From Alkalihalobacillus sp. CinArs1 (GTDB lineage Bacteria > Bacillota > Bacilli > Bacillales > Guptibacillaceae): a stretch of DNA of 64,000 nt. The DNA lies in contig NZ_CANDOB010000001.1 of NCBI RefSeq assembly GCF_947387515.1, positions 62,001 to 126,000 on the forward strand, given 5' to 3'. Below, in pieces: positions 6,433-21,426 of the stretch. Each line of letters starts with the position of its first letter. The stretch's first letter is position 1. A program made the position numbers and the translations under genes. The notes below the pieces were generated by a model. That model did no database searches. It was not told the origin of the DNA and saw nothing but the letters and a program-made list of their open reading frames with translations.

Positions 6433-7031
6433 GAATAACCACGTCTTTCTTGATGTTTTTTCATAACGTTCTCTAGGTGGCTCGTAAGCTGGACAAACCC
6501 TTCCCACATGAAGATGCCCGTAACAGATATCGCCATGATGTCTAAAGAGCTATACCTACCGATTACAGTTTGAATGCCCATCTGATAATAGATTACCGCC
6601 ATAATAAGTTCTCCTTGTACGATCGCAAGCATCAAAAGCGCGCACCTTTGTCCTGCTCCTTGTACCGTCAAATGGACGATAACAAACAGAGCAAGAGCGA
6701 TGGACCATGATGTGTATAGATAGCTAAACACTGGATCATATAGCGAAAAGAGTTCGATCGATGCGTAAGCTGCCATAAGCATCAATACGACTAGAGCAGC
6801 GTACAACTTCTTACTATGTAGTGTTTTCATTAACATAAAATAGCCGATCAACCAGCATAGAATCAATGCGCCGTTCACGTTATAAACCACGATTGGAATC
6901 TCCACATTTGCTGCACAAATCATGATCAAACATAAAACGACGATATTTTGGGTCGTTTGTGATGGTTTAACAAAGAAGACAAGAACGATGATAGCGATCC
7001 AACTTAACCAAATAAATAGTGCCCCATCCAA
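6429..7031 (-). CDS. yphA: YphA-like multi-pass membrane protein
   Basis: This is a 200-residue protein made of about six hydrophobic segments with no soluble domain, ending in a basic tail (KKHQERRGYS). The longest frame begins at GTG 7040, which overlaps the AAGGAG ribosome site. TTG 7031 has seven bases of spacing and is preferred. It is first in a three-gene operon with the YIEGIA protein and its small partner. Both downstream junctions are 4-base overlaps, so the three products are probably made in fixed ratio and act together in the spore membrane. Size and place match B. subtilis YphA. Confidence 0.75.
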   Translation of the reverse strand: MDGALFIWLSWIAIIVLVFFVKPSQTTQNIVVLCLIMICAANVEIPIVVYNVNGALILCWLIGYFMLMKTLHSKKLYAALVVLMLMAAYASIELFSLYDPVFSYLYTSWSIALALFVIVHLTVQGAGQRCALLMLAIVQGELIMAVIYYQMGIQTVIGRYSSLDIMAISVTGIFMWEGFVQLTSHLENVMKKHQERRGYS

Positions 7032-18914: not shown

Positions 18915-18951
18915 TAGCCTTCCGCGCGTTTTCTTCGGAAGGCTTATTTTT
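18915..18951 (+). terminator. Terminator between bshB2 and mecB
   Basis: AGCCTTCCG pairs with CGGAAGGCT and is followed by TATTTTTAT. It ends the bshB2 transcript. Confidence 0.85.
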
Positions 18952-19540
18952 ATTGAAAGTAGTGATTCAATTGTTTTACAGCTTCAGAGTGCATCAGTGT
19001 TTTTCCATATTCAATAACACGATAACTTGTGATTGTAGATGGATTACCGAATTCAGCTAATAGCGCGATGAGCGTATCTAACTCCATGTCACCGATTTCC
19101 TCTTCGTTAATCTTCAGATAGAATTGTTGTTGGTACGAATAAAGAATTCCACCTTCAACACCTACATCAAGTAAACGTTTCGAAAGTCCGATCACATCTT
19201 CGAACGTATTAAATTCATAAAATACTTCATCGCTTTCATCAAGCGTAACCTGCATTTCGATGTATTCATCGTTGTAATCATCTTCAAAATCGGTTTCTTT
19301 TGAGCCTTTTGTAACGATTACGACCATACCTTGAGCAGGCAATGAAAACACTTCAACTGCGATAGGGCCATCTACTTTAAAGCCTAGTTCATCGTCTGCT
19401 TCCATAATCATTTCTCTGAATAACTTATGGACCTTTGGCACGTCCTGCCATAATTCTTCTTTCGTTATTCCTCGCTCGTTCAAATCGTCATAAGTGAGAA
19501 ATATCTTAATTTTGTCGTATGTTAAACGTTCAAGACGCAT
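18950..19540 (-). CDS. mecB: MecA-family ClpC adaptor (MecB/YpbH type)
   Basis: MecA-family adaptors bring substrates to the ClpC ATPase and drive its assembly. The 196-residue protein starts MRLERLTYDKIKIFLTYDDL and has an N-terminal substrate-binding part ending near VEVFSLPAQGMVVIVTKG. An acidic linker and a C-terminal ClpC-binding domain (GNPSTITSYRVIEYG) follow. Position downstream of gudB and the N-terminal sequence match the paralogue MecB (YpbH) rather than the competence regulator MecA. MecB functions overlap with MecA in B. subtilis. Confidence 0.88.
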   Translation of the reverse strand: MRLERLTYDKIKIFLTYDDLNERGITKEELWQDVPKVHKLFREMIMEADDELGFKVDGPIAVEVFSLPAQGMVVIVTKGSKETDFEDDYNDEYIEMQVTLDESDEVFYEFNTFEDVIGLSKRLLDVGVEGGILYSYQQQFYLKINEEEIGDMELDTLIALLAEFGNPSTITSYRVIEYGKTLMHSEAVKQLNHYFQ

Positions 19541-19678: not shown

Positions 19679-20590
19679 CTAAATTGAAAGTTTATGAAGC
19701 TTGTGTTTTATCCATACATCCCATTCATCTTTATTCTTTCCAACGAAATAGTTGTCATAAGCTTGTCTCTTTTCACCATGTAGATGTAGAAGTGCTCCAC
19801 CTCCAACACCGATTGTTAATTCCGGAAACTTATTATCGAGACGATCGATCAAGTTCAAACATTTAGGTAGATTTGACATGAGGGTGCACGATAAGAACAA
19901 TATACTAGGTGCAGTGTCTTCCACTACGATTTCAATGTCTTTTTCAGGAATGCTAGGACCTAAGTAAATTACTTCAAAGCCTTTCCTTCTAAGGTATAAC
20001 GTAAAGATCAAAAGTCCTAATTCATGGTACTCATCTGTTGAACACACCGCCATAACCTTAGGAAGGTATCCATCAATCGGCAAGGTATGAAAAATCATGC
20101 CTATTCTCGATCGTAAAAATGCAGTAGCGAAATGTTCATGTGCAACTGTAATCTTTTCGTTTTCCCATAGTTCTCCTACTCGAACTTGAAGCTGCCCTAG
20201 GATATCTTGTACAACTTTATCGATACTAAAAAGTGAAAAGGCTTGATTTAACAATTCCTGCGCTTTGTTTTCTTCAAATGCAAGCAAGGCTTCCAAAATA
20301 TCATCTGACAACACGTGAGCACGATCTCGACTTAACTCTGAAGCATCCGAGTGTGGCTCTGTATTTCCATCCTCAAGCAATTCTACTGCTTGACTAATCG
20401 TAAAGCCTTGTTCTGTCTTTTGGACTAACCATTTCAAAACCGATAAATGCTCATCTGAATAGAGGCGATGACCAGCATCATTTCTTATAGGAGAAATAAT
20501 ATTGTACCGTCTCTCCCATGCTCTTAACGTTCCAGGTTGTATACCTAGTTTTTTAGAGACTGCTTTAATATTATATTTACCATCCGACAT
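19679..20590 (-). CDS. MerR-type regulator with B12-binding domain (CarH/LitR type)
   Basis: This 303-residue protein joins a MerR winged helix (residues 5-75, with LRAWERRYN and HRLYSDEHL) to a C-terminal cobalamin-binding domain. In the helical cap W142 is followed nine residues later by E152-H153, the Wx9EH motif of the adenosylcobalamin photoreceptor CarH. The Rossmann part has E187-Y-H189-E-L-G192, the ExHxxG motif whose His ligates cobalt. CarH-type proteins repress promoters in the dark and release DNA in light. Two 11-bp-phased repeats lie over its own promoter. Light sensing is inferred; no carotenoid or photolyase gene is adjacent. Confidence 0.88.
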   Translation of the reverse strand: MSDGKYNIKAVSKKLGIQPGTLRAWERRYNIISPIRNDAGHRLYSDEHLSVLKWLVQKTEQGFTISQAVELLEDGNTEPHSDASELSRDRAHVLSDDILEALLAFEENKAQELLNQAFSLFSIDKVVQDILGQLQVRVGELWENEKITVAHEHFATAFLRSRIGMIFHTLPIDGYLPKVMAVCSTDEYHELGLLIFTLYLRRKGFEVIYLGPSIPEKDIEIVVEDTAPSILFLSCTLMSNLPKCLNLIDRLDNKFPELTIGVGGGALLHLHGEKRQAYDNYFVGKNKDEWDVWIKHKLHKLSI

Positions 20591-20626
20591 AGCCCTCTAC
20601 TCCTCTACTATTCATTCATCATACTC

Positions 20627-20656
20627 AGTATAAGGGATGGATGATGTTTGTGTAAA
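20627..20656 (-). promoter_or_regulatory. Promoter of the MerR/B12 regulator
   Basis: On the minus strand a -35 TTTACA (20651-20656) and a -10 TATACT (20627-20632) are 18 bases apart. They lie in the 77-base gap between ypbG and the regulator. It is a good housekeeping-sigma match. Confidence 0.65.
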
Positions 20657-20665
20657 CTTTGTATA
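20649..20665 (-). promoter_or_regulatory. CarH-like operator: two 11-bp-spaced repeats
   Basis: TATACA (20660-20665) and TACACA (20649-20654) on the minus strand are exactly 11 bases apart and both fit the T-n-n-A-C-A core of CarH-family operators. The second copy overlaps the -35 element, which suggests autorepression. Only two clear repeats are visible; a third position is degenerate. Confidence 0.5.
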
Positions 20666-20667
20666 AG

Positions 20668-21426
20668 TCATTTCCTTTTTAATGTAAAAACGTGTGACTC
20701 AGCAGGTGCCATCAGTCTTAAGGGAAGTGTGGTGGTACCGTATCCGTTACTGATCACAACAGTCGTTCCTCCAACTTGTTTTATTCCGCCTTTTTCACGT
20801 AATCCCCATCCTAAAAGTCTAATCTGACCACCATGCGTATGACCTGAAAGTAAAAGCTTAATATCTGAATCATTTGTAAGCTCATGTTTAATATCAGGGT
20901 TATGACTGATTAAAATCTTCATCGGTGCTTTTGCTTTTGAACAAGCTTCTTGAAGAGAGTGGTTGTGTGTCGAGAGGTCGTCGATGCCTACTAGACTTAT
21001 TTCATCTTTATTTTTCGTGATGGTTTCAGATGTGTTTTTTAAAATCGTAATATTACTTTTAACAAGTATCCGTTCTAGACGATCTGGATCTTCTTCGTAA
21101 TCATTGTTCCCCCAAACGAAATAACATGGAGCAACCTTCCTTAGATCTTCTAAATTTTTCTGTACCTTTTCAAAAGAGACGCCCTTTTCCATCACATCTC
21201 CTCCGATGACAACAATATCTACTACTCCCTTTACCTCATCGATGATGCTCTCAGAAATCCTGCGGTTATGTAAATCTGATATGAAGAAGATGGTGAAGGA
21301 CTCGAACTCATCAGGCAGCCCTTCAAGGAAAAGTTCTTTTCTCACAACCCTATTTAAATGTGCTTCAATCCACATATAGATCAACAGCAGCACAGAGGCT
21401 GCTGCAAAGAATAAGACCACCATCAT
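20668..21426 (-). CDS. ypbG: YpbG-like membrane-anchored metallophosphoesterase
   Basis: This 252-residue protein has an N-terminal membrane segment (about residues 3-20) followed by a calcineurin-like phosphoesterase domain. All metal-binding blocks are present in order: FISDLH, VIGGDV, WGNNDY, LISHNPD and LLSGHTHGGQ. The substrate is unknown. Its start overlaps the stop of the upstream membrane gene as ATGA, so the two are translationally coupled. It corresponds to B. subtilis YpbG, but here the MerR/B12 gene sits between it and mecB. Confidence 0.87.
   Translation of the reverse strand: MMVVLFFAAASVLLLIYMWIEAHLNRVVRKELFLEGLPDEFESFTIFFISDLHNRRISESIIDEVKGVVDIVVIGGDVMEKGVSFEKVQKNLEDLRKVAPCYFVWGNNDYEEDPDRLERILVKSNITILKNTSETITKNKDEISLVGIDDLSTHNHSLQEACSKAKAPMKILISHNPDIKHELTNDSDIKLLLSGHTHGGQIRLLGWGLREKGGIKQVGGTTVVISNGYGTTTLPLRLMAPAESHVFTLKRK

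Follow-up and report, generated by a model that had tools for sequence, protein, structure and literature searches.

A probable vitamin B12-based light sensor of the CarH/LitR class at a conserved Bacillaceae locus in Alkalihalobacillus, with predicted carotenoid and stress-regulator targets

The window, by which we mean the whole 64,000-nucleotide stretch of Alkalihalobacillus sp. CinArs1 DNA (on contig C1) that was analysed, carries between ypbG and mecB a reverse-strand gene for a MerR-type protein with two B12 domains. What can be read directly at this locus are the domains, the motifs, the predicted fold, the conservation of the place itself, and a set of tandem repeats with their positions. 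The features are as follows, in window coordinates.

18950..19540, (-): mecB/ypbH neighbour, locus marker (profile matches)
19679..20590, (-): carH/litR orthologue of 303 aa with an ATG start; MerR domain, four-helix B12 cap and Rossmann B12 domain
20015..20032, (-): E187-x-H189-x-x-G192, lower axial ligand motif (alignment)
20132..20167, (-): Wx9EH, W142 to H153 (with E152); E143 stands at the Thermus His132 position
20504..20524, (-): RAWERRY recognition-helix motif, residues 23-29 (sequence; alignment)
20627..20632, (-): predicted -10 TATACT, 18-bp spacer, invariant in 13 genus members
20627..20665, (-): predicted CarH operator (autoregulation), four 11-bp units overlapping the -35 and -10
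20651..20656, (-): predicted -35 TTTACA, invariant in 13 genus members
20668..21426, (-): ypbG neighbour, metallophosphoesterase, locus marker (profile matches)

The domains score above their Pfam cut-offs: MerR_1 at residues 6-73 (58.3 bits), B12-binding_2 (PF02607) at residues 96-165 (57.7 bits), and the Rossmann-type B12-binding domain (PF02310) at residues 178-265 (52.2 bits). The earlier note had described a MerR protein with B12 motifs at particular residues, and the reading frame, the Pfam matches and the motif positions bear this out; its end at 20665 takes in the reading frame plus 75 bp of promoter. Residues R23, A24, W25, E26, R27, R28 and Y29 of the recognition helix are invariant across 24 aligned rows and fit the RxWERRY pattern. 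The class I B12 motif is described as D/ExHx2G-x41-SxT/V-x22-27-GG (PMC9304148); the window protein has the rest of it complete, with S234-x-T236 and G263-G264 at spacings of 41 and 26, and the full pattern fits 78 of 80 relatives (the best 80 of 223 named), the two that fail being L115 and L131. The Wx9EH motif, which is described as touching the adenosyl group in CarH (PMC10442372, PMC9304148), is present in all 80 of these relatives (again the best 80 of 223). This conservation of Wx9EH and of the orthologue itself across relatives argues that the motif set in the window protein is not a product of chance.

Two published features call for a closer look. The light signature given in PMC11796333 consists of GxxW, EH, GxxH and GxxxP; three of the four are found here (G139-W142, EH and G211-P215), and the GxxH element reads DxxH (D186-E-Y-H189), its first position being Gly in 11 of 13 genus members. 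The residue that follows the Trp, His132 in Thermus, is Glu in the window protein (E143), as it is in 80/80 relatives (best 80 of 223 named); in four sequences from the genus Priestia it is Glu in three and Arg in one. The His is present in many members of the class, not all, and is not a defining residue, given the Arg of CtMerR discussed below. The protein is also unlike two known variants of the family. It retains the Trp of Wx9EH, the loss of which, with the B12 motif kept, marks the B12-independent CarA type, and it has a PF02310 domain (52 bits), unlike class II LitR, in which the B12 region is described as reduced to the four-helix part (PMC9758184).

Structural comparison points the same way. 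The best matches among solved structures by sequence are the Thermus CarH/LitR entries 3whp and 5c8d (E about 2e-27). An AlphaFold2 model, made from an alignment of 24 window and named-locus sequences, reached a pLDDT of 85.4 and a pTM of 0.70, and its best structure match is the full-length dark CarH 5c8d (E 5e-17, TM 0.53, rmsd 12.3); the low TM presumably reflects a flexibly linked DNA-binding domain, since the cobalamin-binding part alone matches at an rmsd of about 3.5. The best NCBIfam match is the CarH equivalog NF052513, whose 138 bits fall below the cut-off of 400. On its sequence features, then, the protein is of the CarH/LitR photoreceptor class, with three exceptions: the score under the NCBIfam cut-off, the changed GxxH element and the missing semi-conserved His. 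The source genome encodes two PduO-type adenosyltransferases, and adenosylcobalamin (AdoCbl) should thus be available to the cell.

The position of the gene turned out to be a common one. Of the named Bacillaceae loci we took the best 80 of 223, a sample that therefore leans to well-conserved members, and 71 of these have the gene immediately between ypbG and mecB; in each of the remaining nine a single marker of the pair went undetected, and some flanks were searched over less than 5 kb. This indicates that the position is ancestral, and the gene looks like an old, inherited one, not an insertion. The earlier note had the gene inserted in the mecB-ypbG interval, which is not borne out, the interval being its usual place in these loci and in a Priestia genome as well; a horizontally acquired insertion is rejected on the ground that the locus is conserved. 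Two further remarks made there agree with our data: B. subtilis, one of 14 control genomes, lacks the gene and has no PF02607 domain, and no carotenoid gene is nearby, all four crtI-type matches of the source genome being on contig C3. The flanks of the 80 named loci (best 80 of 223, some covering less than 5 kb) likewise held no crt gene at E<=1e-8. An orthologue was found in 13 of the 14 same-genus genomes, our own included, and in the single genome of another genus of the family; a homologue at E<=1e-25 was found in 195 of 299 genomes of the order, with at most seven candidates scored per genome. The nearest named homologue is that of Alkalihalobacillus algicola AmN0-13 (92%), by which the source seems to be related to Pseudalkalibacillus.

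The most useful relative is a Priestia genome (G175), the 16S of which is identical to that of Priestia megaterium NCT-2 at 1559 of 1560 aligned bases (99.94%). It has one homologue at E<=1e-25, with 53% identity (7 of 25 candidates scored), and this homologue is at the ypbG-mecB locus. From the 16S match and the shared locus we infer that the window gene probably has its orthologue in the characterised CarH/LitR of B. megaterium, the G175 gene being taken as that same CarH. The two systems share the locus, the Glu after the Trp, and tandem 11-bp repeats at their own promoters. They differ in that the Alkalihalobacillus carotenoid operons are on another contig and that the predicted regulon includes an extra small gene, for which G175 gave no match at E<=0.01. 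In B. megaterium, the crt genes are described as being under light-dependent control by LitR (PMC6739363, PMC9758184).

In a tree of 62 rows, which included 19 of the 80 named loci, omitted L208 (<230 aa), and was built quickly, its branches being long and its supports SH-aLRT values only, the window protein fell with Priestia in a clade of 33 rows (clade A, SH-aLRT 99); a second group of Bacillales paralogues (group B) was sister to it (86), and Thermus CarH lay outside. The Thermus thermophilus protein (5c8d, 3whp) resembles the window protein in domain order, Wx9EH, ExHxxG, fold and an 11-bp direct-repeat operator. Identity is about 30-32%, however, and His132, the upper ligand of its light state, is Glu here. 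Thermus Arg176 and Asp201, which presumably form a salt bridge in the dimer, align with Tyr188 and Ser213 of the window protein. The Thermus gene also stands beside phytoene-synthase-type and photolyase genes, whereas the window gene does not. The group B paralogues are MerR-B12 genes away from ypbG-mecB; they share Wx9EH and an ExHxxG-type motif, and five of the six examined have two full tandem repeats upstream, but they form a separate clade at 30-38% identity to the window protein. In two genomes (loci L214 and L226) a group B gene adjoins crtI.

The only other PF02607 protein of the source genome is encoded on contig C7 and has no MerR domain. It is a B12-binding protein of 217 aa with Wx9EH (WEENKITVADEH) and EQHYLG, and its gene overlaps a STAS-domain gene and comes after a 122-aa gene without a Pfam family (region L028 6744-8521, (-)). 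Perhaps this protein provides a B12-based light input to a stressosome-like pathway.

The DNA upstream of the window gene carries a predicted operator of the type expected for CarH, which is described as tandem 11-bp repeats, nnnnTnnACAn, placed over the -35 or the -10 (PMC9304148). The same source gives three repeats for Thermus and four, or three plus a pseudorepeat, for B. megaterium. The window gene has the units TATACA, TACACA, CATCCA and TATACT, the first two being full TnnACA repeats across the -35; the other two are degenerate, and the last of them is the -10 itself. The sequence TTATACAAAGTTTACACAAAC upstream of carH is invariant in 13/13 genus members. In G175 the corresponding units are TTTACA, TATACA, TACACA and TAACTT, which makes three full repeats and one pseudorepeat, as compared with two full and two degenerate units here, and is a design reported for CarHBm (PMC9304148). 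Two perfect tandem repeats within 150 bp upstream of carH were found in 52 of 80 relatives (best 80 of 223), as opposed to 0.7% of controls, which were sequences resampled from base-pair frequencies, 20 per locus; they are absent from 28 of the 80, all of them B12-competent (same best 80 of 223). As far as its sequence goes, the window gene has the operator of the class, with tandem 11-bp repeats over the promoter elements.

Not every protein at this locus has kept its B12 residues. Those of G068, G211, G062, G155, G099 and G208 at ypbG-mecB no longer have the Trp or the lower-ligand His, and that of G189 is without the Trp. Loci L202, L204, L205, L206, L207, L217 and L218 hold orthologues, at or near ypbG-mecB, from which B12-binding residues have disappeared, apparently several times. 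In the tree, the B12-less rows nest inside clade A, some on long branches, and the pattern reads as a repeated loss of B12 sensing at this locus. None of the seven B12-less members has two full repeats upstream. A co-loss of B12 residues and operator is weakened by G097, G126 and G168, three of the four members in this set that are B12-competent, which are without two full repeats as well. These seven proteins demonstrate that a B12-free life of the protein exists, and one may ask whether the window protein leads such a life too, as a regulator resembling CarA or class II LitR, in which the fold is retained, neither B12 nor light plays a part, and some other partner is needed. We consider this very unlikely: Wx9EH is kept in the window protein and in 80/80 relatives (best 80 of 223 named), CarA as described in PMC9304148 has no Trp where the window protein has one, and the two full tandem repeats that all seven B12-less examples lack are present in front of the window gene.

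Repeats of the same kind stand before carotenoid genes. A crtI-type gene on contig C3 has two full repeats and one degenerate repeat upstream, as found in 14/14 family genomes with crt, and TGTATAATGTTTGTATAA at this gene is invariant in 13/13 genus genomes. A 17-bp core, TATACAAANNTTAYACA, stands at 26 places in the 15 family genomes, 13 of them at carH and 13 at crtI by their coordinates, with none in G001; the reversed pattern, used as a control, gave 0. The core was built from the source's own carH and crt sites, so refinding those two is circular, and its weight lies in being found nowhere else in the 15 genomes and in recurring at the same genes in relatives, where the promoters are orthologous. 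Within our own genome the crt site differs from the carH site by 3 mismatches, and when 3 mismatches were allowed it was one of 9 hits, the control giving 7; random sequence contains about 12 three-unit sites per Mb that equal those of both crt operons in strength. With such counts, the argument for the crt site rests on its conservation. A second, divergent crt operon has a weaker site, TTCACA/TATACT/TATACA or like, about 60 bp upstream in 4/4 genomes examined. Among the products of this operon are two proteins of the amine-oxidase type (CrtN/CrtP-like), a glycosyltransferase and a protein of carotenoid synthesis, and a CrtO-type gene faces the operon; this gene content suggests a C30-type carotenoid pathway. 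The pairing of sensor and pathway has exceptions in both directions. G007 has carH, and a search for crtI-type genes at E<=1e-60 gave nothing there. In G013 the crt operon and the crt site are present, and its assembly yielded neither carH nor mecB; the absence of mecB too makes an assembly gap or a recent deletion of the region possible.

A scan of the 15 genomes for three exact copies of the published repeat, which as a pattern is independent of these genomes, returned 58 sites as compared with 9 control matches. One kind of site recurs in 15/15 genomes (our own copy is G000:C1:257921-257948). It lies about 50 bp upstream of an Spx/MgsR-family gene in 11/11 genomes with loci examined, and over a TATAAT -10. 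The product of this gene scores 133.5 bits against the NCBIfam Spx model (cut-off 123) and is also over the TIGR01617 cut-off. In B. megaterium, CarHBm is said, in a JBC study of 2018, to control its own gene and an spx gene, the latter with a multipartite operator; among the papers that we searched, none joined CarH, Spx, B12 and light. A second recurring kind of site precedes a gene for a small protein of 60-70 aa.

L325 1501-1700, (+) (G000:C4:147549), and L311 4576-4782: small conserved protein behind a CarH-type operator

Of the 15 family genomes, 13 encode the small protein at E<=0.01 (all except G003 and G014), and the one copy tested has no Pfam or NCBIfam match. In 13 genomes its operator has four full repeats in seven cases, three in four, and two in G005; our own has three, the fourth being off by one base, and G001 has no such site. 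The statement in the earlier note that the targets are unknown gives way to a prediction from the sites: the gene's own promoter, the two crt operons, the Spx/MgsR gene and the small gene.

Several other sites came to our attention. A third recurring kind of site, TCCACA...TTATCCACA, was set aside as a target for its resemblance to the DnaA boxes of oriC. An operator-like site with 2 mismatches lies before the signal peptidase I gene of our own genome (C4:11313-11332, L026 9314-9333); it is not among the 26 exact core sites and was rejected as a target. The window itself has a three-unit repeat site at 6901-6928.

Taken as a whole, the best explanation, to which we assign a probability of about 0.87, is that the window gene codes for a vertically inherited Bacillaceae CarH (LitR), a dark, AdoCbl-dependent repressor of the predicted regulon named above that is released by light. 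The CarH/LitR assignment first made in the earlier note finds support in the motif set, the best structure match by both sequence and fold, the tree, the same-locus orthologue in Priestia and the CarH-type operators. The gene product very probably belongs to a known kind of light sensor built on vitamin B12, although its AdoCbl binding, oligomeric state, light release and repression are what we infer. In the dark, AdoCbl would be held between the four-helix bundle (W142, E152, H153) and the Rossmann domain, with H189 as the lower ligand. The AdoCbl-bound protein would assemble and occupy the tandem 11-bp TnnACA repeats that overlap promoter elements, and would so repress carH itself, the operon in which genes for two crtI-family desaturases stand with one of the phytoene/squalene-synthase type, the divergent crt operon of the C30 type, the Spx/MgsR-family regulator gene and the small gene. 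Blue-green light would cleave the Co-C bond, upon which the assembly would disintegrate and the promoters open.

The light state would depart from the Thermus model, since with Glu after the Trp the bis-His state of the Thermus type is not available. Thermus CarH with the H132A change is described as mostly tetrameric in the light, where an earlier study had reported disassembly (PMC10442372), and this counts against the light-sensing reading; CtMerR of Chloracidobacterium, with Arg at the His132 position, is described as still becoming monomeric in the light (PMC11796333). Taken together, these data make the Glu compatible with function, but with a different light state.

The same parts could also be read as a sensor of cobalamin supply, in which the AdoCbl-bound form represses and the loss of AdoCbl, not light, derepresses. 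Repression by characterised CarH is described as requiring AdoCbl (PMC9304148, PMC8156234), and B12 starvation would thus derepress as well. The predicted targets that we found are, however, photoprotective or stress genes and not genes of B12 transport or synthesis, and the adenosyl-capping motif is of the photoreceptor type; we hold this reading to be very unlikely. That the repeats belong to some other regulator and resemble CarH operators by accident, as the crt site retained in G013 might suggest, is scarcely credible, given that 13 genus genomes have this core in front of carH too, that like repeats occur across genera, and that the region missing from G013, mecB included, may be absent from the assembly or recently deleted.

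On the light-sensing reading of the window gene, what was an orphan candidate becomes a light switch whose targets have names and can be tested. It assigns the Bacillaceae CarH to a conserved locus and points out a light-linked stress regulator and a small protein. A broader picture can be drawn, for which we see the chances as evenly balanced: one ancestral locus would serve a dispersed light regulon (two crt operons, the Spx/MgsR regulator and the 60-70-aa protein with its four-repeat operator) through a light state that is not bis-His, and B12 sensing would have been lost from it repeatedly, leaving MerR proteins that perhaps answer to other signals. None of the relatives examined has the upper histidine of the Thermus type, and nature thus provides in them a test of the importance of the bis-His light state; in the B12-less proteins of this locus it provides a series in which the loss of light sensing can be followed.
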